Source: Okibacterium sp. HSC-33S16
GTDB lineage: Bacteria > Actinomycetota > Actinomycetes > Actinomycetales > Microbacteriaceae
Length of the DNA stretch: 64,000 nt
Direction of reading: 5' to 3'
Assembly (NCBI RefSeq): GCF_024171565.1
Contig: NZ_JALJZZ010000002.1
Coordinates: 1 to 64,000, forward strand
Made by a program: the position numbers and the translations under genes. The notes below the pieces were generated by a model, which was not told the origin of the DNA, did not search any database, and saw only the letters and a list, made by a program, of their open reading frames with translations. Of this stretch, positions 22,776 to 56,204 are shown in pieces. Within the stretch, counting starts at the first letter, position 1. Each line of letters begins with the position of its first letter.

Positions 22776-22985
22776 GTGTTGTCCCTTTCCTGAACCACGA
22801 GACTGGCGTCGTCGCCGGCCTCCGCGCACACAAACGTCGCTGTGAAGCCGAAGCTATCGATCCTGCGGAACACCGGCAAGGGGTTGCGGATCCGCACGAT
22901 ACCGGGTTCGTTTCTCCCTCACGGGGCGTCGGAGGTACATCAGAAACCGGTCAGAGGCAGCACGCGCAGACCGAGACGACACCGA

Positions 22986-23429
22986 TCAGTTGGCGGTCGC
23001 ACCGCCCTCGACGAGGTAAGCCAGGCGCTGAAGCGTCTCAACATTGCGAGCGTGCAGCATCACCCGCCGCAGGGGCTCGGGAATGAATCGCCCGGGCCCG
23101 CTGACCGCGTCTTCGCCGATGCGAACCACACAGCTGTCGCCGCGAGGCTTGACGTCGAGGGTCACATGCGCCTCACCGACAGGCCAACCGCGCGCCTTCA
23201 CCTTCATGTGTCGAGGCGGGTCCCACTCGAGCACCGAGGTGGAGTCGTTGATGAGGAAGGGCCACACTCCGAAAGAGTGAAACAGTCGAGCACCCGGTTC
23301 GGGCCACGCCTCATCGACATCGCGCATTCGCGAGGCTCCCACCACCCAGCTCGGGTAAAGCCAGCCGTTCGCCAGCACCTCAAAGACCCGCTCGGGGCTC
23401 GAGTGGATGAGTCGGTAGTTGACGCTCAT
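22986..23429 (-). CDS. SRPBCC (START-like) family protein
   Basis: 147-aa polyketide-cyclase/SRPBCC-fold protein: YRLIHSSPERVFEVLANGWLYPSWVVGASRMRDVDE, followed by beta strands and the C-terminal helix. Such proteins bind lipids, polyketides or other hydrophobic ligands in a helix-grip pocket. Start at ATG 23429, which overlaps the stop of the upstream FAD oxidoreductase (ATGA), so the two are translated together. That suggests a common hydrophobic substrate. Confidence 0.85.
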   Translation of the reverse strand: MSVNYRLIHSSPERVFEVLANGWLYPSWVVGASRMRDVDEAWPEPGARLFHSFGVWPFLINDSTSVLEWDPPRHMKVKARGWPVGEAHVTLDVKPRGDSCVVRIGEDAVSGPGRFIPEPLRRVMLHARNVETLQRLAYLVEGGATAN

Positions 23430-43016: not shown

Positions 43017-43937
43017 ATGCCAGACAGCCCGATTTCGGCAACGCCGTACGAAATCCTCGGCGTCAGTCCGACGGCCGACCAGAACGAGCTGCGTCGTGCC
43101 TACCGGAAACTCATGCGTGAGACCCACCCTGACACCGGCGGGAACGCGGCACGGTTCACCGCCGTCCAGCTGGCCTGGGAGCGCATCGGCACTGCAGAGG
43201 GACGCGCCGCATACGACCGTGGACGGTCGACCGGGCCGTCGACCGAGGAGCAGCACACCTGGGCCGCTTCGGCCGCGAAGCCGCAGCCGGACTCACGCCC
43301 CCGCGCTCGCTCGTACGGCCACCCCGGTGGCTGGCGACGCGAGCGCTATCTGCGGCTCATGCGCGAGTGGACCGGCCGTGGCGTTGAGGCTGACCCCTAC
43401 GACCCCGCCCTCGTGCGCACGGCTCCCCGTGAACTGCGACACCTCCTTGCCGACGCGCTCGCCGAGGAGGAAACGGCCCGCAACCTAGCCGACCTGGGGC
43501 TCGGCTTCACGGTCTGGCACGACGTCGCCACGGGCGCGCCCGACGAGAAGATCGACCACATTGTGCTCGGCCCGACCGGGTTGTTCGCCCTGTTGTCCGA
43601 AGACTTCGGTGGTCCCGTGAAGGTCAAACGCGGCGAACTCATCGGAGAGGCCGTCGCTGGGGACCGCCCGATGCACGAACTGTCTGCCCGCGCCAAGGTG
43701 CTCTCCCGTGCACTGCGCGTCCGTTTCACCGCGCTCGTCCTCGTCCTGCCGGACGCTGCCCTCGACGAGTCGATGGTCGAGTTGGGATCGAGCCGCGGTG
43801 CGCTCACCCTCGCCGTGCGTTCGTCCTTCCTGCCCGGCCTCATGCGCAACGGTCTTCCTGGCATGAACCGGGCGGGCGGAAACGAGCTGTTCGACGTTCG
43901 TACCCGACTGCAGAATGGCATCCGCTTCGTCGAATAG
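43017..43937 (+). CDS. J-domain protein fused to a degenerate NERD-like domain
   Basis: 306-aa protein. An N-terminal J domain (residues 8-70: TPYEILGVSPTADQNELRRAYRKLMRETHPDTGG) has the HPD motif needed to stimulate DnaK. After a variable linker, residues 160-300 contain LGFTVWHDVATGAPDEKIDHIVLGPTGLFALLSEDFGG, which aligns with the NERD nuclease-related fold, but where active NERD proteins have an (N/D/E)TK motif this one has SED. So the catalytic lysine is missing. A role in presenting an unknown substrate to Hsp70 is possible. The start ATG is not preceded by a strong ribosome site. Confidence 0.75.
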   Translation: MPDSPISATPYEILGVSPTADQNELRRAYRKLMRETHPDTGGNAARFTAVQLAWERIGTAEGRAAYDRGRSTGPSTEEQHTWAASAAKPQPDSRPRARSYGHPGGWRRERYLRLMREWTGRGVEADPYDPALVRTAPRELRHLLADALAEEETARNLADLGLGFTVWHDVATGAPDEKIDHIVLGPTGLFALLSEDFGGPVKVKRGELIGEAVAGDRPMHELSARAKVLSRALRVRFTALVLVLPDAALDESMVELGSSRGALTLAVRSSFLPGLMRNGLPGMNRAGGNELFDVRTRLQNGIRFVE

Positions 43938-43962
43938 GTCACCGCTGCGCTCACTGTGGACC

Positions 43963-43991
43963 TTGACGCGGGAACGGTGCGGGAGTAGCTT
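43963..43991 (+). promoter_or_regulatory. Promoter for the giant-gene pair
   Basis: TTGACG (43963-43968) and TAGCTT (43986-43991), separated by 17 bp, form a good promoter. Transcription would start near 43998, giving a leader of about 120 nt before ATG 44117. The leader has a small hairpin GAGGC-AACC-GCCTC (44027-44040). Confidence 0.6.
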
Positions 43992-44116
43992 GAGCGCGTC
44001 CGCGCCGGCGGATCGAGCCCGGCAGTGAGGCAACCGCCTCCGCCCGACCTCCTGTGTCACCCGTTGTCACGCTTCGCCAGCGTCTGTGCGCGCTTGTGTG
44101 CGCTCTAAGGGGCAGA

Positions 44117-47100
44117 ATGCCCGAGCTTTCTCCGCACGTTTCCCGTGCGCTCGACCGGGTGTTCGCACCGGTCGACTCCGTTGTCCGCGCCGACCATGTC
44201 TTTGAGCCGGCCGTGCCCGTGGGCACGTCGGGCGAATCGCTCCCGCCGGTTGCTCTGATCCGGTCGGGCGATCTGCTGTCGCTGACCTTCCGATTCGTGA
44301 ACCTGACGGTGAGCGAAACGGATGCCGGTGGCGTGCTCGCGAGGTCGCGAACGTCGGCGTCGGCGTATCTGGTCGCCCAATTTCCGGCGCAGCATCTTCT
44401 CGAGCGGGCATATTTCGAGTCGGCAGGAACGCTGCCGAAGGTGGGCGGCCCGCCGCTGCCAGCTGGGTCGGATCCGGTCACCCTGCCCGCAGAAGCAATT
44501 CTCTCGGCCTCCAGCCGACTGGTTTTTCGAGTCACTGACCAGCGCATCCCGTTCACCGAAGCCGGGCTCCTTGACGCGATGCGCACCCTGCCGCTCAGTG
44601 TCGCCCCACACGCCGACAGTTATCTCCTCCATCTGCCGTGGCTCGACCTCGCGGCCGATCTGAGGGCGCTAATGCCGACTGCGCGGGTCTCCGGTTCGGC
44701 GTCGCGGGGCGGCTCGCGGCGAGCGTCGGGTCGGGTTGTAGCGGAGCTCACCCGTGAGCCGGTCTTTGCCCGACGCACACTGACCGATCTCGCTGGGCAG
44801 GGACGACTGCGTCGCACGGCCAGCGAGATCGAGCTGCAGTTTGGCGCATTCAGTGCGGTCGCCGCCGTGGCCGATCGCCTGAGCGACATCGATGTGCTCA
44901 CTCCGCTTCCGCGGATCCCGCGCACGCCGCCCGTGCCGCGTGAGCCAACGAGTACCGAGACGGCGATCGAGTTGCCGTGGCGGTTGCAACTCAGTCCGCA
45001 CTCGCGCGGAGCGTTTGCCCACAGCACCGCTGAGGTCAGCCATGGCGGTCGCACCGAGCTGTGGCACACGCGCCTCGGCACCCGCACCGATGGCGCTACC
45101 CCGGGAATTGACGAGGTCGACCCGGCGACGAAGACCGTGCGCGCGGTGTGGACCCGTGACTTTGACCGGACCGGCGAGGCTTTTCCTGTGAAGGCCGCCG
45201 AGATCAGGCGCGACGACCCTGAGCTCAGCCCGTTTCGTGCGTCACTGTCGATTCGCGATCGCAAGTTCATCGTGCACCAGACGTCGAACTTCGCCCTGAC
45301 CGGAATGCCCGCCGGCTGGATGCCGATTCCCGCGACCGTGCACAACCTCATGCTCACCGCTGTGGGCGGTTGGCTCGACAGTGAAGCGAAGTTTCCGATC
45401 ACCGGAACCGCCATTTCACTGCAGGAGTGGAAGCACCGGGCCACCCTGGGGAGGGACCAGTACATCAAGGTTGTCTACAGTGGCGTGCTGTACCCGTTCG
45501 GACACCGCGCATCGCTGGTGAAGGTCACCGAGCGGCGAGTGGCGTCAGCGTCCCGTGCTGCGGTGCTGTTCCAGCGACTGTTCGTCGTGGTGCGGCAACC
45601 CGAACGGGTCTTCCGCACGTCGGGGAAACCGAAGCTCGACAACCGCATGCCGTTCAGCTGGGTGCGGATACTCACCGATTCGACACCTCCGCTCATGTCG
45701 CCTGGTGCACAAACGAACGGTGCACTGTTCGTGCCCCGGGTGGCGACCGGCGCGTCGGGGCCCACAGCGGGAGAAGCGTTCCGATTCCGGATGCGCGCGA
45801 GTGACGTTGACAACCACCTGATCGAGTTCGAGGGGCCACTCGTCTTTATTGAGGAGACCCGTCTCGATCCGTCTGTGCTCGACCAGAGCCTTCTGACGGC
45901 AGCCGCTGAGAACATCAGCTATCCGATGCGCGGCCAACGAATCGCGTTCGCGAAACCGAACGAGCCCGACGACACGACGCTCGCGACGAACTCGCTGGTC
46001 TTCGTCGCGGAGAAGGACCCGCAGAAGCCGCGGGAACCGAACTACATTCTCCCGGTGCTGAAGTCGGCGACCGCTGTCGTCCCGGCCATGAGCGCGTTCA
46101 CCGGCCAGACGGCACCCGTCGTGCTGTCATACCCAAACGCCTTCGTCGCGAACGGGTTCACCGCTGCCGCGAACTGGTCTGAGCTGTTTCTTCAGGTGGC
46201 GAATCCCGACGGTTCTCCGGTCACAGCGCCCGAGGTGATGGGGTTCGGCGCAAAGTCCGATCGTTCGGGAGGATTCCTGAGCCCCAGTGTCGGAATCACC
46301 GCCCTGGCACGACAGGTCGGCCCGGTCGGCGGTGCCCTGTCCGCACTCACCACGGGCAGCCGGGCATCCTTCCCCGTCGGTACGATGTTTCCTCTCGATG
46401 CGGCGAAGCTGTTCGGCATCCTGCCACTCGCTGAGCTGCTGCCGATTGGTGGGGCGCTGCCCCGCTTCGTCACCCAGTCGATCACCGAGGTGGTCGCGCT
46501 GCAGGAGAACATCGCCCGCCTCCAGGCGTTCGCGCTGCAGCAGGCCGCGGTTTTCTCGGGCCACTCTGTGGCACTGGGCCAGGCGGCGGCCGAGCTCGTC
46601 ACCGACGCGGGCCAGTTACCCGCAGCGCTCGTCGCGCTCTCGAAGCCGCCACACGACGATGCGGACGTTCAGGCACTCCTCACGAAGATCCACGGACATG
46701 TGGCCACACTGCTCGGCGGGTTCAGCGACCCAGCGAAGCCCCTGCCGTTCGCCCGCCCCACGATCGAGCAGATGGTGTCGGTGCTCGGAAGCGTCGAACA
46801 GGCCACCGCCGCAGCTGCCGCGACGGTTGGACTGTTTGTGCAGTTTTACCAGGGCTTTGCGCTTCCCGAGAAAATCAGCGCCCGGCTCGACTGGGAGATC
46901 GACCTGGTGCGCTGGCCGCCCCCGCCGGCGAGCGAGTCGGCTGCCATCTTTCTGCCGCGGGGCAGTGTGCGACTGGTTGCCGAGATCGAGGCACCGACCA
47001 ACGGTGGCGAGCCCCGGGCCCTGGTGTCGTGTTCGCTGCCGCCCTTCGAGATCAGGCTGATGGGTGACGATCTGCACTTCGTCAGCATCAACGTCGCCGT

Positions 47101-47932
47101 GATGGAGTTCTCGGTGCGTCCCGGCACCAAACCGGACGTCAACGTTGAACTGGAGAAGGACAAAGGAATCGTCTTCGCGGGGCCGCTCGCGTTTATCGAG
47201 ACGCTCAAGGAGATCATTCCGGCCGATGGATTCAGCGATCCTCCGTTTCTCGACGTCAGTACCGAAGGCATCCGTGCGGGATATGACCTTGCACTGCCCG
47301 ACGTTCCGATGGGCATCTTCGCGCTGTCGAACGTGCACCTGGGTGCGGAGCTGCTCGTGCCGTTCATCGGCGAGTCACTGGAGTTTCGGTTCTTCTTCGC
47401 TACCCGGGAGAACCCGTTCCGACTGCAGGTGGCATTCTTCGCCGGAGGGGGATTCTTCGGCATCACGATCTCGCCCCGGGGCATCAAGGTCATCGAGGCG
47501 TCGTTCGAGTTCGGCGCGGCGGTGGCCATGAGTTTCGTGGTTGCGTCTGGGTCGCTGTCGGTCATGGCCGGCATCTACTTCAAGCTCGAACTGCAGGGTT
47601 CGACCCAGGCCGTTCAGCTCACCGGATACTTCCGCGCTCGAGGCGAGGTCGATGTGCTTGGCCTCATCTCCGCCTGCATCGAGTTGTACCTCGAGCTCAG
47701 TTACTTCAACGATGGTGGGAACTCCAAGGCCATCGGTAAGGCATCGATCAGCATCGAGGTGTCGGTGTGCTTCCTCTCCTTCTCCGTCTCGGTGTCGTGT
47801 GAAAAGAAATTCGCGGGAACGGCGGGAGACCCAACGTTCGTCCAGATGATGGGGCCGTATGTGGACGATCGCGATCGGCCGCGTGAGCCGTGGGATGACT
47901 ATTGCGGTGCGTTTGCACCCGAGGTGGTGTGA
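44117..47932 (+). CDS. Giant hypothetical protein 1 (1271 aa)
   Basis: I do not recognise this protein. It has no signal peptide and no clear membrane helix. About the first 780 residues look beta-rich with proline-rich turns. A helical section (about residues 785-915: EVVALQENIARLQAFALQQAA onwards) follows. From about residue 930 the sequence turns to long alternating hydrophobic/polar strands, for example FFFATRENPFRLQVAFFAGGGFFGITI and VQLTGYFRARGEVDVLGLISACIELYLELSYF, ending with a few cysteines. That is the pattern of an extended beta sheet or barrel. AAGGGG lies before ATG 44117. The next giant gene starts one base after its stop. Confidence 0.85.
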   Translation: MPELSPHVSRALDRVFAPVDSVVRADHVFEPAVPVGTSGESLPPVALIRSGDLLSLTFRFVNLTVSETDAGGVLARSRTSASAYLVAQFPAQHLLERAYFESAGTLPKVGGPPLPAGSDPVTLPAEAILSASSRLVFRVTDQRIPFTEAGLLDAMRTLPLSVAPHADSYLLHLPWLDLAADLRALMPTARVSGSASRGGSRRASGRVVAELTREPVFARRTLTDLAGQGRLRRTASEIELQFGAFSAVAAVADRLSDIDVLTPLPRIPRTPPVPREPTSTETAIELPWRLQLSPHSRGAFAHSTAEVSHGGRTELWHTRLGTRTDGATPGIDEVDPATKTVRAVWTRDFDRTGEAFPVKAAEIRRDDPELSPFRASLSIRDRKFIVHQTSNFALTGMPAGWMPIPATVHNLMLTAVGGWLDSEAKFPITGTAISLQEWKHRATLGRDQYIKVVYSGVLYPFGHRASLVKVTERRVASASRAAVLFQRLFVVVRQPERVFRTSGKPKLDNRMPFSWVRILTDSTPPLMSPGAQTNGALFVPRVATGASGPTAGEAFRFRMRASDVDNHLIEFEGPLVFIEETRLDPSVLDQSLLTAAAENISYPMRGQRIAFAKPNEPDDTTLATNSLVFVAEKDPQKPREPNYILPVLKSATAVVPAMSAFTGQTAPVVLSYPNAFVANGFTAAANWSELFLQVANPDGSPVTAPEVMGFGAKSDRSGGFLSPSVGITALARQVGPVGGALSALTTGSRASFPVGTMFPLDAAKLFGILPLAELLPIGGALPRFVTQSITEVVALQENIARLQAFALQQAAVFSGHSVALGQAAAELVTDAGQLPAALVALSKPPHDDADVQALLTKIHGHVATLLGGFSDPAKPLPFARPTIEQMVSVLGSVEQATAAAAATVGLFVQFYQGFALPEKISARLDWEIDLVRWPPPPASESAAIFLPRGSVRLVAEIEAPTNGGEPRALVSCSLPPFEIRLMGDDLHFVSINVAVMEFSVRPGTKPDVNVELEKDKGIVFAGPLAFIETLKEIIPADGFSDPPFLDVSTEGIRAGYDLALPDVPMGIFALSNVHLGAELLVPFIGESLEFRFFFATRENPFRLQVAFFAGGGFFGITISPRGIKVIEASFEFGAAVAMSFVVASGSLSVMAGIYFKLELQGSTQAVQLTGYFRARGEVDVLGLISACIELYLELSYFNDGGNSKAIGKASISIEVSVCFLSFSVSVSCEKKFAGTAGDPTFVQMMGPYVDDRDRPREPWDDYCGAFAPEVV

Positions 47933-47933
47933 C

Positions 47934-50900
47934 GTGAACGAGGAAGCGATTTTTACGGTTATCCCGGCCGGCCGGGTGGCCGATGGGCTCAAGGTGACCG
48001 TGTTTGTCACCCCGCGGCTCGACGCGGCCGGCGGTCCGGTCGATGGCACTCCGCTTCGAGACTTTGAGGCCTTCGCGAACTGGCCGCGAACCACTGAACT
48101 CGCGAATTTTCGCTTCGAGATCAGCAACGTTGGTGTGGTGGAGGGCTTCGGACTGCCGAACCCCGTCGCGCCGGACCCTCAGCTCTGGGACCTGCTGTTC
48201 GGAGAGACCGTGGTGGGCGCCGCGGAGTTTCAGGACTTCTCGACCGCCGTCGTGAACTCTTTTCCGGTGAACGAGGTGGCGAACGCCCTGACCGATCTCT
48301 ACACTGCGGTTGCCGTGGCATCGCCCACCGAGTTCCCGCCGATGACCCGTGGGCCGCTCGCCCAAGCGGTGGCCGAACTCAGCGTCGGTGACCACACCGA
48401 GGAACCCGGTCGCGCCCCCTCCCGCCGCGAGATCGTCAGGGGGCTGCTTCGCGGGTTTCGGGCCAGGTCGGACCCGGCCGGCCGATTCGTCGACTTCGAG
48501 AACCCCACCGTTGTTCCGCTCAGCGAGCGGCGCAGGATTGCGCTCGCCGCGGCATCCGCTTTCTATGATCGATCGGCAGATCCCCTCGACCCGACCGAGG
48601 CGGCGACCGGTGCGCCGCCCCCCGTGCCGCCGGAGTTTCACAGTTTCGTTGCGCGGTGCGCGGACTACCCGGAACTGCTGCGTCACCTTGGGCTCGCCTT
48701 CGATGTGTTCGTGAAGGATGACCCGGGGTACCCCGAGGTGTCGCGGATTCGGCTGCTGCCTGATGACAACGAAGGGCCGCTCCGTAGGTTGCTGGACCCT
48801 GAGGCGGCGCGGCCGGAAACACTGTTTCACTACACCGAGCGGTTGTGGGTGCCGTACAGCCGTGAGCGGCGAGGGGATGTCCGTGACGGAAGCCTGTCGA
48901 TTGACAGTGACGACGTGTTCGATGTGCTCCAGATCGACCCGGACGGTTCGGCGCTGAAGCTGTCGAACCTGCTCGACACTGTGCGGCGGACAACGGCGGA
49001 ACTCGCCACAGTCGACAGGTCGATGACCGTCGATGCTGCGTCGCTTCCCGCGCTGCGCTCGGCGGGGATCGTGGTCGCGCGTCGCAACCGGGCCGAGCAG
49101 CTCGTGAACCAGTTCGATGCAGCCCGTGCCCACGAGGACGATCGGCTGGGTGCCACCGAGGCGCTACTCGAGGCGTCGGATGTGACCCGAGGGTTTCGCG
49201 TGGACATCCAGGACCAGACCGTCGGTCGGGAGTGGATGTCGCTGCACCGGCGTGAAGGAACGTATGAGGTGCGGGCGGATGGTGGGGTAGAGCCGCTTCC
49301 GGTGCAACCGCTGCCGGATGAGGGTTACCTCAAGGCGGCGAGCACGTCGAGCGCCGCACCCGGTACCACCGCCGACCAGTATCTCCACGAAGCGGTCGTC
49401 GGCTGGGACGGGTGGTCGCTCGCCGTGAAGCGCCCGGGCCGGCTGCAGACCGAGGTCGGGACGGTGGAACCGGAGGTGGCACCCGAGGTGGCAGCGACCG
49501 GGTTCGGGCTGGCCGCCGAGTTCCGGCCGCAACGCGGTTCGCTTCCCCGGTTGCGCTACGGGCGCTCCTACCGGGTGCGGGTGCGGGCCGTCGACCTGGC
49601 GGGTGGCTCGATTCCGGAGGACCAGCTGCTCGAGGAACATGAGCGGGACCTGCCGGACACGTACCAGCGCTGGGAACCGGTCCCCGCGCCAGCGACGGTG
49701 CCGCTCACGGAATACACCGAGGGCGAATCCCTGATGAGGATGGTCATCCGCTCGACCGATGGGGTGAGCGCCAGCGACTATGTGTCGCTGGATCGGGTAA
49801 CCGGTCTGGCCAATCACGCCCCGAACGGCATCTGGTATCGCGCCGACAACGCCAGGCACCTGGCCGCCCCGGCGACGAGTGTGCAACTCGCGGAGACCCA
49901 TGGCGCCTTTGACGCGGCACTGTCGGGGAACGCGGCGGCGGTGGCTGACCAGTTCGCCGTGGCCGCGCGAGAGTCGGGAAGCTACCTCCTGTTGGCCGGT
50001 GGTCGATTGGTCAGTCGGAGGGATGAGCCGACGACCCTGACCGGCCAGAAGAGCGACGTGCTCAAAAACGGCGAGTACATCGTCCATGACACTCCGCAAC
50101 TCGACCTGCCGTACCTGCCCGATCCGCTCTCGCGCGGAATTTCGTTCGCGACGCTGCCCGGCGACACCGACCTGCGGATACTCCGGTGGCCCGGCGATGA
50201 GGCCATCTGGTACGACCGCCTGCCGGTGCGGGTGCTGGCCGTCGAAGGAACGGGGCCGCCGAGCTTCGACGAAGCGACGCGAACCTTGACCGTCTCACTG
50301 GCGAAGGCCGAATTTCGGACGGTGCGCGTGGCATCCGCTCTGGATTCGGGTGATGAAAACCTGATGCGGATCTGGACGCTCATTGACCGTGACCAGAACC
50401 CGGCAACGACGGCCCAGCGAGCGGCTGTGCTGTCAGGGCGGCATTGGATGATCACGCCGTTCTCCGAACTGACCTTTGTGCACGCCGTGGAGAAGCCGCT
50501 CGAAAAGCCGGTGATTCTGGTCGGACCGGGTGGGCCCGCGAACAGTCGGGTGCACCGGCTGCCCGGTGACACCTTTGCGGCGCTGTTCGGGGCGGTCCGC
50601 ACTCACGCGGCCAGCACCGGACGACTCGACATCGACGCCGAGTGGACCGACAGGATCGACGACATTGCCCAGCCGACACCCGGGACGGAAGCTGTGTTTG
50701 CGCACGTCACCGGGTTCTCGCTCGAGCGCGATGAGGTGGACTGCCTGATCGCTGCAACGGAGGGTCCGGCCGGTGGGCCGTTCGGGCCACGACACGAGGT
50801 GCGGCAGGAATTCGGCGACACCAAGCACCGGTACGTGTCGTATCGGGCGACGGCGACGACGCGTTTTCGGGAGTACTTTCCGCCAGAGATCACCAACGAT

Positions 50901-52235
50901 CCCGACCTCGTCACGACGGAGGGCGAGCCGCTGAGGCTGAACATTCCGTCGAGCCGGCGCCCCGATCCGCCGGACGTGAAGTACATCATTCCGACATGGG
51001 AATGGACAACCGATGACCTCGGCGGCGAGGGATTCGGTGTGCGCCGGGTGCGCACGGGCGGTGGACTTCGCGTCTACCTCGGCCGGCCCTGGTACTCGAG
51101 TGGTGAGGAGGAGATCCTCGGGGTGGTGCTGCGGATCCAGCCGTGGCTGACCTGGCACGCTGACGTGGAGCGCGGTGTCGTTGGCAGCATCGATGCCCAG
51201 GCGCTGAGCGATACCTGGGCAGCGGGCGTGCTCGAGCGCGATGGTGTGTCGGTGTCAGGGCGGAGCTCGGCGTCTGCTCAATTGCTCGAGTCGCTGACCG
51301 AACGGGTTCGGGCTGACGAGGCCCCGGTGCGGGCGCGCACCGACGAGGAACGTGCGCTTCTGGGTACACGCTCAGCGCTTGCCGCACTTCGGTCGTCCGA
51401 CCCGGTGGTGAACCTCGAAACAGTCGTCGACCACTTCCCGCTGTTCGGGGAAACCGGTGCCGACGGCTTGCCGTTCACCAGCGTCTGGGGAACGGACCCC
51501 GTCTACATTTCTGAGCCCGTGGCATCCGGACCGTTAATTTCTCAGTTCCCGTTGCGAACGAGTGTGGGGCACGGGGTGTTGCTTTCTGAGGTGGGGGAAC
51601 GGGTGACCGTCGTGGGGCACGCGCCCGAGTACGACCCGGACCGGCAGTTATGGTTCTGCGACGTGCAGGTCGATGCGGGTGATGCGTACACTCCGCTGGT
51701 TCAGCTGATGCTGGGGCGGTATCAACCTCATTCCGTGGGTGACGAGCACCTGTCGAAGGTGGTGAAGGCGGACTTCGTGCAGGTGTTGCCGCGTCGGGAG
51801 GCGACGTTTGTCGAGTCGGTCGATCGGACCGCGATCGTCGTGACGCTGAGCGGAGCCGTCGGCATTCCTCACCACGCACAAACCCTGCCGAACCTCGCCA
51901 GCAAGGTCGAGGCGTCGCGGCGGGTCGAGGCGTGGGTCGAGAAGTTGCCCGCGGATGCGACGAGCGACCTGGCGTGGGAAGAGGTGGGACGGCGGGTTAC
52001 CCTGCCCGTCGTTTCCGGTCTCCGGTTCCTGCGCCGAGGCACCTACGACGAGGTTGACTGGGCTGGCGCGGTGCCCGTGCCGAGTCGACAGGACGCGCCG
52101 GTGGGCGAACGGTGGCGGGTGCGCATCGCCGAGTATGAGCTGCACGTTTCGGATCGAGAGCCGACCGGGCACATCGCTCCATTCCGGATGCGGGACGCCC
52201 GGCTTATCTACAGCGACACGGTCGACCTGCCCTGA
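47934..52235 (+). CDS. Giant hypothetical protein 2 (1433 aa)
   Basis: I do not recognise this protein either. It has no signal peptide and no membrane helix, and seems to be a string of beta-sandwich-like domains with Trp/Tyr/Pro-rich strands. Passages that may serve for family searches are RYGRSYRVRVRAVDLAGGS (about residue 545), EGESLMRMVIRSTDG (about 596), LDLPYLPDPLSRG and STGRLDIDAEWTD. Such phrases recall large structural or secreted proteins of actinobacteria and myxobacteria, but I cannot give a function. GTG 47934 is chosen for its 1-base gap after the preceding gene, indicating translational coupling. Confidence 0.85.
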   Translation: MNEEAIFTVIPAGRVADGLKVTVFVTPRLDAAGGPVDGTPLRDFEAFANWPRTTELANFRFEISNVGVVEGFGLPNPVAPDPQLWDLLFGETVVGAAEFQDFSTAVVNSFPVNEVANALTDLYTAVAVASPTEFPPMTRGPLAQAVAELSVGDHTEEPGRAPSRREIVRGLLRGFRARSDPAGRFVDFENPTVVPLSERRRIALAAASAFYDRSADPLDPTEAATGAPPPVPPEFHSFVARCADYPELLRHLGLAFDVFVKDDPGYPEVSRIRLLPDDNEGPLRRLLDPEAARPETLFHYTERLWVPYSRERRGDVRDGSLSIDSDDVFDVLQIDPDGSALKLSNLLDTVRRTTAELATVDRSMTVDAASLPALRSAGIVVARRNRAEQLVNQFDAARAHEDDRLGATEALLEASDVTRGFRVDIQDQTVGREWMSLHRREGTYEVRADGGVEPLPVQPLPDEGYLKAASTSSAAPGTTADQYLHEAVVGWDGWSLAVKRPGRLQTEVGTVEPEVAPEVAATGFGLAAEFRPQRGSLPRLRYGRSYRVRVRAVDLAGGSIPEDQLLEEHERDLPDTYQRWEPVPAPATVPLTEYTEGESLMRMVIRSTDGVSASDYVSLDRVTGLANHAPNGIWYRADNARHLAAPATSVQLAETHGAFDAALSGNAAAVADQFAVAARESGSYLLLAGGRLVSRRDEPTTLTGQKSDVLKNGEYIVHDTPQLDLPYLPDPLSRGISFATLPGDTDLRILRWPGDEAIWYDRLPVRVLAVEGTGPPSFDEATRTLTVSLAKAEFRTVRVASALDSGDENLMRIWTLIDRDQNPATTAQRAAVLSGRHWMITPFSELTFVHAVEKPLEKPVILVGPGGPANSRVHRLPGDTFAALFGAVRTHAASTGRLDIDAEWTDRIDDIAQPTPGTEAVFAHVTGFSLERDEVDCLIAATEGPAGGPFGPRHEVRQEFGDTKHRYVSYRATATTRFREYFPPEITNDPDLVTTEGEPLRLNIPSSRRPDPPDVKYIIPTWEWTTDDLGGEGFGVRRVRTGGGLRVYLGRPWYSSGEEEILGVVLRIQPWLTWHADVERGVVGSIDAQALSDTWAAGVLERDGVSVSGRSSASAQLLESLTERVRADEAPVRARTDEERALLGTRSALAALRSSDPVVNLETVVDHFPLFGETGADGLPFTSVWGTDPVYISEPVASGPLISQFPLRTSVGHGVLLSEVGERVTVVGHAPEYDPDRQLWFCDVQVDAGDAYTPLVQLMLGRYQPHSVGDEHLSKVVKADFVQVLPRREATFVESVDRTAIVVTLSGAVGIPHHAQTLPNLASKVEASRRVEAWVEKLPADATSDLAWEEVGRRVTLPVVSGLRFLRRGTYDEVDWAGAVPVPSRQDAPVGERWRVRIAEYELHVSDREPTGHIAPFRMRDARLIYSDTVDLP

Positions 52236-52244
52236 GCTTGTTCC

Positions 52245-53564
52245 TCAGCAGCAGGTGCCCGATTGCGCCGGTGTGCTCGTTGAACAGACGCCGGTTTCGG
52301 GCAGGATGAGCTCAACCCGCCGTGCCGCGGAGAAGTTGCCGGCAAGCTCGTCGGCAATGGACCTGACCTGTTCGTAGCCGGTGAGCAGCAGGAAGGTCGG
52401 TGCGCGCCCGTAGCTCTTCATTCCGGCGACGTAGAAATTCGGCTCCGGGTGACTGAGTTCAACCACGCCGTGCGGCGGCACGCTGCCGCAGCTGTGCAGG
52501 TTGGGGTCGATGAGCGGCGCCAGCGCCCGCGGCGCCTCGACGACCTCGTCGAGCGCCAGGCGGATCTCCCGCAACATGTCGAGATCCGGGCGGAACCCGG
52601 TGGCATTCACAACCCGGTCGACCGTGATTGTGGTCGGCTTCCCGCCCCGGCGCCCGCGCACCTCAACACGCCCAGCGGGGTGGGGAACCAGGTCGTCAAT
52701 CTCACAGGCGTCGATGAGTGACACCTCGCCGGAGCGCACCAGATCATGCGTCGAGGTGCCCAGGGCGCCGCGAGCGTCGAGCTCGTCGTCGCCTGAGCCG
52801 AAGACACGCACCGGACTGGAGTTGCGAATAGCCCAGCTGATCGTCGTGCCCGGTTCCTCGCGGGCCAGAGCCGCGAGAGCGAGAAGTGTGTGTGCGGCGG
52901 AGTGTCCGGCGCCAACGACGAGCGTGTGCTGCCCGGCGAAGCGTGCGCGGTCGTGCCCTTGCACGTCGGGCAGCGCGGGGCAGATCGTGTCGCCAAGCAC
53001 GTCCGCGTGCTGCGGAGCGAGCCCGTTCGCGATCACGCTGTTCGGGGTCGAGTAGGTGCCCGAGGTGTCGATAACAGCGCGCGCGAGCTGTTCCTGTGGA
53101 CCAGCGTCGGTATCAGTCCGTACGATGAACGGTGTCGATGCGCGCCCGGTCGACCGCGTGCGGTCCATTCCTTGTCGACTGACCGCGGTAACGATCGATC
53201 GGTAACGGATGCGACCGGCCAGCGGTTCGGTCGCCGCGAGTGGAGCCAGGTAACGGTCGACGAACTCGAGTCCGGTTGGCAAACCTCGAGCGGGTGGTGC
53301 GTCCCATCCTGTCGGATCGAGCAAGCGGGCAGCTGCATCGTCGACAACGAACTCCCACGGCGAGAACAGCCGAATGTGGCCCCACTGTCGAATGGCACTG
53401 CCGGCACGATCGCCTGACTCGAAAACGAGAACATCAATGCCGCGCTCGAGGAGGTGGGCTGCAGCGGCGAGTCCAACCGGACCCGCGCCAATCACGACAA
53501 CGGGCAGGTGCTCGAGGTTCTTAGAGCGCGGAGCGGCACGCAGTGGAAGCTCGGCGAGGGGCAC
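52245..53564 (-). CDS. FAD/NAD(P)-dependent oxidoreductase of the arsenic locus, Cys-rich tail (ArsO-like)
   Basis: 439-aa flavoprotein with two dinucleotide-binding motifs (VVIGAGPVGLAAAAHLLERG and TLVVGAGHSAAHTLLAL) and a DATGF-type region VVNATGFRPD, like class B monooxygenases and the ArsO-type proteins found with arsR/arsC. The last residues read GVCSTSTPAQSGTCC, so three cysteines crowd the C-terminus. These could bind trivalent arsenic or hold a disulfide. It begins 4 bp after the arsC stop and is co-transcribed with it. Confidence 0.85.
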   Translation of the reverse strand: MPLAELPLRAAPRSKNLEHLPVVVIGAGPVGLAAAAHLLERGIDVLVFESGDRAGSAIRQWGHIRLFSPWEFVVDDAAARLLDPTGWDAPPARGLPTGLEFVDRYLAPLAATEPLAGRIRYRSIVTAVSRQGMDRTRSTGRASTPFIVRTDTDAGPQEQLARAVIDTSGTYSTPNSVIANGLAPQHADVLGDTICPALPDVQGHDRARFAGQHTLVVGAGHSAAHTLLALAALAREEPGTTISWAIRNSSPVRVFGSGDDELDARGALGTSTHDLVRSGEVSLIDACEIDDLVPHPAGRVEVRGRRGGKPTTITVDRVVNATGFRPDLDMLREIRLALDEVVEAPRALAPLIDPNLHSCGSVPPHGVVELSHPEPNFYVAGMKSYGRAPTFLLLTGYEQVRSIADELAGNFSAARRVELILPETGVCSTSTPAQSGTCC

Positions 53565-53568
53565 GGGG

Positions 53569-53979
53569 TTACCTCCCGGCCATGGTCAGGTCGGCCACCA
53601 ACGCCTCGACCCGGCGCTTGATCTCGTCCCGGATCGGTCGCACATCCTCAATGCCTTTGCCAGCCGGGTCCGGGAGATCCCAATCCTCGTAACGCTTGCC
53701 CGGAAAGACCGGGCAGACGTCACCGCAGCCCATTGTGATGACGACATCGGACTGCTGAACCTGCTCAGTCGTCATCAGTTGGGGAACGGCCCGGGAGATG
53801 TCAATGCCCTCCTCGGCCATGGCCGCAACGGCCGTCGGGTTGACAGCGTTGCCCGGTTCAGAGCCACCGGAACGCACCGTGACAGTTTCGCCGGAGAGCG
53901 CCGTCAGGTAGCCGGCTGCCATTTGGGATCGGCCCGCGTTGTGCACACAGACGAACAGCACTGTCGGGTTGTCGGTCAT
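53569..53979 (-). CDS. arsC: Arsenate reductase ArsC, LMW phosphatase type
   Basis: 136-aa low-molecular-weight phosphatase-fold arsenate reductase. The P-loop CVHNAGRS (C-X5-R-S) sits at residues 11-18, and the general acid region is DWDLPDPAGKG. Further cysteines lie in GCGDVCP. It reduces arsenate to arsenite, using thioredoxin or mycothiol/mycoredoxin; the actinobacterial setting favours mycothiol. Divergent from arsR. Confidence 0.93.
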   Translation of the reverse strand: MTDNPTVLFVCVHNAGRSQMAAGYLTALSGETVTVRSGGSEPGNAVNPTAVAAMAEEGIDISRAVPQLMTTEQVQQSDVVITMGCGDVCPVFPGKRYEDWDLPDPAGKGIEDVRPIRDEIKRRVEALVADLTMAGR

Positions 53980-54019
53980 GGTCGTTCCTTTGGCTGAGTG
54001 AGTGCCTCGCCGGCGTCAC

Positions 54020-54072
54020 ATCGATGAGTGTCGATATCTACTGTGGGGTACTATATCGATGAATGTCAATAT
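54020..54072. promoter_or_regulatory. Paired ArsR operators between arsC and arsR
   Basis: ATCGA-TGAGTG-TCGAT (54020-54035) is a perfect 5-bp inverted repeat with 6-bp spacer, and ATCGA-TGAATG-TCAAT (54055-54070) is a slightly imperfect copy, their starts 35 bp apart. Both are followed by AT. They lie in the only gap between the divergent arsC and arsR genes. On the minus strand TTGACA (54069-54064) is a consensus -35 for the arsC direction. Confidence 0.75.
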
Positions 54073-54090
54073 AAGCAGAGGATGGTTCGC

Positions 54091-54441
54091 ATGGCACTCG
54101 TCACAACACTCCCGCTGACGGACGTGACCGAGTGCTGCGCGCCCTTGACGCGCGAAACCCTGTCCGCGCACAACGCGGAGAAGCTCGCCAAAACGCTCAA
54201 GGCCCTCGCTGATCCGGCACGATTGCGCCTGGTGTCGATGGTCGCGGCCCACGACGACGCTGAGGCGTGCGTGTGTGATCTCACCGAACCACTCGGACTC
54301 GGCCAGCCCACCGTCTCGCACCACCTCAAGGTTCTCGTCGACGCCGGCATCCTCACCCGGGAGAAGCGCGGAACCTGGGCCTACTACCGCCTCGTCCCCG
54401 GGGCGCTGGATTCGCTCGCGAGCCTCCTCGTCACCGCGTAG
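54091..54441 (+). CDS. arsR: ArsR/SmtB family metalloregulator
   Basis: 116-aa winged-helix repressor. The metal-binding motif is ACVCDLTEPLGL (ELCVCDL type), with two further cysteines in TECCAPL near the N-terminus. The recognition helix is QPTVSHHLKVLVDAGILTREKRG. It is released from DNA by As(III)/Sb(III). The ATG at 54091 is chosen since AGAGGA lies 8 bp before it; the frame's earlier ATG codons lie inside the operators. Confidence 0.93.
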   Translation: MALVTTLPLTDVTECCAPLTRETLSAHNAEKLAKTLKALADPARLRLVSMVAAHDDAEACVCDLTEPLGLGQPTVSHHLKVLVDAGILTREKRGTWAYYRLVPGALDSLASLLVTA

Positions 54442-54500
54442 TTCTCGCAGCCCGTACTGGGGCTGTCCGTTGGGCACTCACAATCCCTACTCTCAGGTCC

Positions 54501-55322
54501 GTGCCCGAAACCGCTGCCCTCACCTCCATGCGCACCCGCATTGCCGGTCAGGAGGCCATCGCCGAACTGCTGCGCGAACAGGCATCGGTGCCCCGGCGTA
54601 GCGCTCCCGCCCGGCTGTTCGGTCGCTCACCGCTCAGCATCGTCAGTCGCCCGTGGTACATCGGAGCCGAAGGCGAGATCGCGGTTGGCCGCGAACTGAC
54701 TGACCTGCCGTCCGGCTGGACCGTGCTGCACGCTCTCCCCGTCGGCACCCGCGGCTCCGACATTGACCACATCGTGATCGGCCCTGGCGGAGTGTTTACT
54801 CTCAACACCAAGCATCACGCCAACAAAAACATCTGGGTGGCCGGGCGAACGCTCATGGTGAACGGGCGCAAGGTTCCGTATCTCCGCAACGCGGAGCATG
54901 AGGCATCCCGGGTCGAAAAAATGATGTCCGAACGGATGCCGTCGGTCACGTCAGTGCAGCCGCTCCTGATCCTCGTGGCACCGAAGCACGTCACCATTCG
55001 AGAGGAACCCGAACGGGTGGTGGTGCTCACGTCGCGTCAGCTCCGCAGGTGGCTGGAAAAGCAACCCGTCGTGCTGCCGGAGCCGCAGCTCTCGGCCGTC
55101 ACTGCCCTGCTCGATGAGCCGGGCTTTTGGTCCACGCCGTCACGTGATCGCGGTGACCTCTCTGCGGGCTTTGCCGAGCTCGACCATGAGGTGCGATCAG
55201 CCCGGTCGCGCCGCAGGCTGTGGTCCGGGGCAGGCCTGGTCGGCATCGGTGCGGCGGCGATGGGTCTGTTGCCGTTGGCCGTGCAGCTCTATTCCGGACT
55301 GGTTCTGTCGGTCATGCCTTAG
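54501..55322 (+). CDS. NERD domain membrane protein
   Basis: 273-aa protein. The nuclease-related domain has EGEIAVGRELTDL and DIDHIVIGPGGVFTLNTKHHANKNIW, which keeps the DIDH and NTK motifs. A C-terminal hydrophobic helix (AGLVGIGAAAMGLLPLAVQLYSGLVLSV) anchors it to the membrane. The function of such proteins is not known; the fold is nuclease-like. TACTCT (54488-54493) is 7 nt before the GTG start, so the mRNA may be leaderless. Confidence 0.87.
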   Translation: MPETAALTSMRTRIAGQEAIAELLREQASVPRRSAPARLFGRSPLSIVSRPWYIGAEGEIAVGRELTDLPSGWTVLHALPVGTRGSDIDHIVIGPGGVFTLNTKHHANKNIWVAGRTLMVNGRKVPYLRNAEHEASRVEKMMSERMPSVTSVQPLLILVAPKHVTIREEPERVVVLTSRQLRRWLEKQPVVLPEPQLSAVTALLDEPGFWSTPSRDRGDLSAGFAELDHEVRSARSRRRLWSGAGLVGIGAAAMGLLPLAVQLYSGLVLSVMP

Positions 55323-56169: not shown

Positions 56170-56204
56170 GGGGGTAGAGGGGCACCTACCCCCAGTAGGT
56201 GCCC
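56170..56204. terminator. Two overlapping, mutually exclusive hairpins after the SDR gene
   Basis: Hairpin A pairs GGGGGTAG (56170-56177) with CTACCCCC (56186-56193). Hairpin B pairs GGGCACCTA (56180-56188) with TAGGTGCCC (56196-56204). They share the bases 56186-56188, so only one can form at a time. There is no T-run after either. They follow the SDR stop by 7 bp and might end transcription or act as a switch; 56205-56442 holds no further gene. Confidence 0.55.

Follow-up and report, generated by a model that had tools for sequence, protein, structure and literature searches.

A predicted long-strand amphipathic beta sheet in a giant protein of a sporadically distributed bacterial gene pair

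Introduction

What might a run of about 190 residues, in which hydrophobic and polar side chains alternate, be doing near the C-terminus of a giant protein of an actinobacterium? The question arises from a 64,000-nucleotide stretch of Okibacterium sp. HSC-33S16 DNA (contig NZ_JALJZZ010000002.1, positions 1 to 64,000), hereafter the window. A sequence-only reading of the window had suggested a long beta sheet or barrel at 47310-47870, and had considered a beta-barrel or hydrophobic groove unexpected in a bacterium without an outer membrane.

Results

The giant protein, A (44117-47932, forward strand; 1271 aa), belongs to no known family. Residues are numbered along its open reading frame (ORF), listed as 44054-47932 on the forward strand, so that positions 47310-47870 are residues 1086-1273. 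Translation of A likely starts at ATG 44117, because an SD-like AAGGGG stands before this ATG and M22 of the window protein aligns with the first residue of the Cryobacterium homologue (L020). Translation of the second protein, B (47934-52235, forward strand; 1433 aa; ORF listed from 47859), likewise of no known family, most likely begins with the GTG at 47934, one base past the stop of A. Neither protein has an acceptable match in Pfam, NCBIfam, PHROGs or PADLOC, and a defence system was rejected as a candidate since PADLOC returned neither A nor B. Searched against PDB sequences, a profile of 17 B proteins and a profile of the A C-terminal region (21 proteins) gave no match, and a profile of 20 A proteins gave only weak coiled-coil matches. 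A Pfam peptidoglycan-binding domain was matched in one of the 17 B proteins. A text search of the literature, which cannot find a family by its sequence, returned nothing that could be linked to the A-B pair.

Within A, residues 800-925 (46451-46828, forward strand) are poorly conserved and have a helix-like periodicity of family hydropathy; this is probably a helical or coiled-coil segment, with weak coiled-coil matches in PDB sequences (best E 0.043). The Apolipoprotein Pfam model, a generic helix model, matches 2 of 20 A members, with a few weaker matches, and a Rhizobium relative (L028, 5566-13035) is annotated as an apolipoprotein A1/A4/E domain protein, an annotation that probably stems from the helical segment. 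The segment is followed by a conserved C-terminal domain (residues 965-1292; 46946-47929, forward strand). In an alignment of 22 A proteins, the best-conserved blocks are residues 1041-1240 and 481-520. The C-terminal tail carries a motif, W..YC.AFA (47891-47917, forward strand), which in the form W..[YHR][CAL].[AS]F is found in the last 60 residues in 22 of 30 loci; the eight A proteins that lack it are all proteobacterial. The length of A, as called, ranges from 869 to 3311 aa (L021, in which A is split into two frames, was left out).

The alternation is real. It was measured as the mean beta hydrophobic moment (170 degrees, 9-residue windows) and compared with 2000 composition shuffles, none of which reached the value observed for residues 1086-1272 of A (z = 5.2). 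The lag-2 autocorrelation of the same residues was also elevated (z = 3.5), and their helical moment was under chance (z = -2.1). The segment GYFRARGEVDVLGLISACIELYLELSYF, quoted in the sequence-only reading as an example, was located at residues 1191-1218 (47624-47707). When hydropathy was averaged over 22 family sequences, the lag-2 autocorrelation was 0.39, compared to a shuffled SD of 0.07. On the 150-residue-window scale used for the calibration below, individual A relatives share the alternation (median z 4.8, range 2.7-6.1, n = 30 including the window), with five of them below 4. Among six other segments of A that were tested, only residues 926-1085 were clearly raised (z = 3.3). The extent originally proposed needs adjustment: alternation is already present before the segment, at this weaker level, and in the model the sheet stops near residue 1256.

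Two of the checks that had been proposed, structure prediction and an amphipathicity profile, were run. The AlphaFold model of residues 1070-1260, made from a two-sequence alignment, is an all-beta meander of 12 strands (pLDDT 62.3, pTM 0.53), the last seven of which are 14-21 residues long with short turns between them. The block mean pLDDT is 77-83 for residues 1190-1259 of this 191-residue model, and the values fall below 50 for residues 1070-1113, 1120-1122 and 1135-1145. The other four of the five AlphaFold models disagree, with pLDDT from 51 to 31, and a model of residues 925-1292 (368 residues, two-sequence alignment; pLDDT 31.8) has residues 1201-1220 as a helix. An all-beta meander of long strands thus has moderate support from modelling, and we infer that it would form an open, gently curved antiparallel sheet. 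A long amphipathic sheet (residues 1070-1256; 47261-47821, forward strand) is supported by the one-face alternation, which lies far above chance, by the model of moderate confidence and by face mapping. A sandwich or solenoid with both faces polar, the outcome named beforehand as contrary to the proposal, is absent from this model.

When 30 relatives were mapped on the model, 8 of the 10 longer strands had one face that was hydrophobic on average and another that was polar, and in these eight strands the hydrophobic face was the better conserved one. Strand 1122-1140 had no face separation, and the polar face of strand 1143-1163 was near neutral. The turns are hydrophobic at one end of the sheet and polar at the opposite end. 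The hydrophobic turns, all on the forward strand and nearly fixed in length, are VASG (47540-47551; mean hydropathy 0.45, conservation 0.75; span length identical in 30 of 30), VLGLI (47654-47668; 0.99 and 0.70; span of 7 residues in 24 of 30 and of 6 in 6 of 30) and VCFLSF (47765-47782; 0.60 and 0.49; span of 8 residues in 28 of 30 and of 9 in 2 of 30). The corresponding means and conservation values of the polar turns are -0.13 and 0.43 for SPRG, -0.22 and 0.23 for QGSTQA, and -0.05 and 0.20 for DGGN; the lengths of the latter two vary, and SPRG has a single length in 27 of 30.

Searches with the 191-residue model gave no match passing E 0.001, either with Foldseek against PDB or against a viral structure library. 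Below this threshold, Foldseek listed Vibrio cholerae OmpT (probability 0.96, E 0.07, TM 0.41), weak leukocidin rows (E from 0.012, TM 0.13-0.23) and a weak row to microsomal triglyceride transfer protein (MTP; E 0.022). A second look with VIA found TonB-dependent transporters and porins at Z 9-12.7, with parts of larger barrels matched, and apoB-100 at Z 12.2 and 11.9, the former with an rmsd of 5.5 over 162 residues; in neither fold search does apoB outrank the barrels. No repeating-beta-groove protein was among the 50 VIA rows listed, a list that cannot exclude one. No homology was found by hhalign to one E. coli TamB sequence (probability 0.3%) or to FhuA, and TamB was not found in the own genome.

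The strength of the alternation was calibrated by scanning 150-residue windows along 39 E. coli proteins, a hand-picked set of groove and barrel proteins plus neighboring genes; a few complete genes of measurable length in the fetched stretches, ppa, mreD, yabP and yeeR among them, were left out. The three top values belong to TamB (6.9), YhdP (5.5) and YdbH (4.9), followed by LptD (3.7); TamA (2.3), FhuA (2.2) and OmpF (1.7) are lower. A second run of 15 proteins, 6 of them repeats from the first run, gave 4.1 for Ag43 (window from residue 881), 4.0 for FimD, 3.5 for LptD, 2.6 for FhuA and 4.3 for YdbH, and values from repeated measurements vary by as much as about 0.6 z. On this scale, the A domain of the window scores 5.1 and six outer-membrane barrel proteins score 1.7-4.1. 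The alternation is groove-like in strength on average, yet it overlaps that of barrels among the relatives of A.

The A-B pair is sporadic, and ranges from Actinobacteria to Proteobacteria. With the own genome counted, A was found in 1 of 6 genomes of the genus, 1 of 59 relatives and 11 of 396 genomes of the phylum, its C-terminal profile in 13 of 394 genomes of the class, and B in 6 of 398 genomes of the family, one of these being a weak partial match. Plasmids had A matches in 18 of 72,556 records and B matches in 10, the hosts for A being Rhizobium, Sinorhizobium, Agrobacterium, Ruegeria, Cupriavidus, Diaphorobacter, Paraburkholderia and Streptomyces. A weak pattern scan of genome contigs found no relative with A and one with B (Cryobacterium algoritolerans). 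A phage origin was rejected, with no A match in 50,697 phage records; five scans of viral contigs with a few short patterns found no relative.

We examined 32 fetched loci including the window, which represent part of all matches. In 30 of them, with a profile that was built from 22 of the same 30 proteins, an A-type protein had one significant C-terminal-profile match near its C-terminus; L053 and L061 had none. In 28 of the 30 loci, the strand that encodes A also carries a match to the B profile downstream of it; L028 and L060 have large frames downstream of A that the B profile does not recognize, and in L027 another large frame stands between A and B. The C-terminal domain of A is family-wide and part of a two-gene A-B cassette. 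When 30 proteins from part of the flanks were scanned for a conserved third gene, no family was found beside more than two pairs. A few loci (L021, L050, L056, L058 and L060) have lipase-, esterase- or peptidase-like genes in the vicinity of the pair, namely patatin, PHB esterase-like, phospholipase C, astacin and S8 peptidase genes. CWB2 cell-wall-binding proteins adjoin it in two actinobacterial loci (L035, 7255-7965; L052, 4782-6560), and an Agrobacterium vitis plasmid has nearby a gene annotated as dpdE, a component of a DNA-modification system (L027, 23669-25353).

In Okibacterium sp. HSC-33S16, A, B and a flavin oxidoreductase gene occupy a 10.5-kb segment (43938-54449; ends set by alignment to sibling G002) between a DnaJ-NERD gene (43017-43937) and a NERD gene (54501-55322). 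The siblings G002, G004 and G005 have about 0.2 kb in its place. In G003 the next matching stretch is at window position 56175, and the NERD gene was not found either. The site between the DnaJ-NERD and NERD genes is variable, because G001 has about 3 kb of different DNA there, with LacI-type and fucose-isomerase-like genes. Relatives of the flavin oxidoreductase of the segment (52245-53564), 68-70% identical, are located elsewhere in all five siblings; such a gene adjoins the pair here and in Cryobacterium (L020, 757-2751), there in a different architecture. A foreign composition of the insert was rejected (G+C 0.660, flanks 0.659 and 0.666).

The scan for export signals was confined to twin-arginine (Tat) signals. 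Under a strict twin-arginine rule, an N-terminal signal was found in 8 of 30 A proteins (L022, L026, L027, L034, L056, L057, L058 and L059) and in 0 of 30 B proteins, and nowhere else in the A and B proteins, over a further 87,621 residues, did the rule match. L035 is a near miss by eye. A twin-arginine signal with a hydrophobic stretch is absent from the A of the window and from its closest relatives (L020, L029, L030, L050 and L051). It should be noted that in L037 and L060 the true N-terminus of A possibly lies in a frame just upstream, outside the scan. The signals on A in these eight loci, with none on B, suggest that the very large pair may be co-exported there. In three alphaproteobacterial loci (L027, L056 and L059), small proteins with Sec-like N-termini by eye are encoded just downstream. 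On a conjugative S. meliloti plasmid (L026), a 55-aa tatA (22922-23089) directly follows the pair, and type IV secretion genes lie upstream of it; a dedicated TatA for the pair was rejected, as phmmer with this TatA recovered only itself in 31 stretches.

Discussion

Our preferred, still tentative reading, held at somewhat below an even chance, is that lipid or another apolar ligand sits in a trough formed by the hydrophobic face. The face would act as a trough or belt that holds such a ligand or rests on a membrane, the conserved hydrophobic turns may be its contact edge, and A would act together with B. In lineages where A has a Tat signal, this action would take place outside the cytoplasmic membrane, a step that we do not extend to the A of the window, which carries no Tat signal. 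This reading is favored by the strong alternation in the window and its relatives, by the position of TamB, YhdP and YdbH at the head of the E. coli list and by the second-look matches to apoB-100, and also by the face mapping, the predicted meander and the Tat signals on some A proteins. Conversely, the fold comes from a single two-sequence model, the fold searches match barrels at least as well as apoB, hhalign gives no homology to TamB, the barrel proteins Ag43 and FimD reach about 4 on the alternation scale while five relatives fall below it, two strands separate their faces poorly, any sheet packed on another layer alternates too, and lipase- or esterase-like neighbors occur in just a few loci. 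The original remark holds only in part: a hydrophobic groove needs no outer membrane, whereas an outer-membrane barrel is indeed unlikely in monoderms.

The second reading, only slightly less probable, is lipid-free: the hydrophobic face would be a protein interface or core, packed under the helical segment of A, under B or under a second A. Ligand binding and burial in an A-B assembly are close to even in our judgement. The regular presence of a B-profile match after A points to an interface, as do the conservation and near-constant length of the hydrophobic face and its turns, which recall a packing interface, and the helix-like segment ahead of the C-terminal domain, although the latter is poorly conserved. 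What disfavors it is an alternation as strong as in lipid grooves and stronger than that of the measured fimbrial subunits of E. coli and of most of Ag43, a comparison that includes few soluble long-strand proteins.

A quite unlikely third reading takes the strands for membrane-inserting hairpins, such that A and B would form a beta pore or anchor themselves in a membrane, the hydrophobic turns entering first. The conserved hydrophobic turns at one end only, the weak leukocidin rows (best E 0.012) and the Tat signals in 8 of 30 A proteins are in line with it; however, the TM of those rows is negligible, and neither A nor B matches any family in Pfam, NCBIfam, PHROGs or PADLOC.

Of the sheet or barrel originally envisaged, the long amphipathic sheet is upheld by the alternation, the model and the calibration, while the barrel is not, the fold search settling neither way. 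We consider a barrel of the outer-membrane type very improbable, because a signal, where the Tat-only scan found one, is of the Tat type (8 of 30 A proteins) and the relatives include monoderm actinobacteria. The latter are not known to have such an outer membrane or the machinery that inserts barrels. The second-look transporters and porins (Z up to 12.7) and the OmpT probability of 0.96 do favor a barrel, but the best matches are only parts of larger barrels, and the alternation in the window exceeds that of all six barrel proteins, though its relatives overlap with them. A beta solenoid with short coils, suggested by the beta-rich, Gly-containing sheet, is hardly credible, given that the last seven modelled strands exceed solenoid coils in length and that Ag43, whose passenger is a beta helix, scores high solely in its C-terminal part.

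Returning to the trough, a wider and rather doubtful proposal is that A-B is an undescribed mobile two-component machine of monoderm and diderm soil bacteria, in which A would be a giant carrier, Tat-exported in some lineages, with a C-terminal sheet that loads lipid or an apolar metabolite as a convergent counterpart of apoB. Whichever reading holds, two large proteins spread from Actinobacteria to Proteobacteria lack a convincing match in the searched family libraries, and the pair is apparently undescribed. A lipid-carrying sheet would amount to a lipid-handling device in bacteria that have no outer membrane, and a sheet that serves as a protein interface would still mark the heart of a complex that nobody has studied. 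For experiments, the conserved face, the turns and the tail are direct targets.

Among known systems, hitchhiker export, in which a Tat substrate carries a signal-less partner, is similar in that A has a signal in 8 of 30 loci and B has none; it differs in that most A proteins, including that of the window, have no signal, and the A-B pair would be only a candidate for such co-export. Outer-membrane barrels (FhuA, FoxA, BtuB and OmpT) have in common with the model of A a meander of long amphipathic strands (best Z 12.7), but the matches cover parts of larger barrels, the alternation of the window A is stronger, and there is no profile similarity to FhuA. In the second look, the modelled sheet of A matches that of apoB-100 (Z 12.2, tied with barrels), and Foldseek has a weak MTP row (E 0.022); however, no apoB, MTP or vitellogenin domain was matched in Pfam scans of A and 20 members or in PDB profile searches, apoB-100 and MTP are animal proteins, and the model of A is only moderately confident. 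Phospholipids have been cross-linked inside the YhdP groove, according to PMC11014939. AsmA/TamB-type proteins (TamB, YhdP and YdbH) differ from A in that they share no profile similarity with it (no Pfam match of this type for A at E up to 1, or among 20 members at E 0.1), that some A relatives carry a Tat signal, and that the sheet of A, modelled as a fragment, is at best a putative counterpart of their repeated, membrane-anchored groove modules. Nevertheless, the A domain shares with them strands with one hydrophobic face and an alternation of similar strength.
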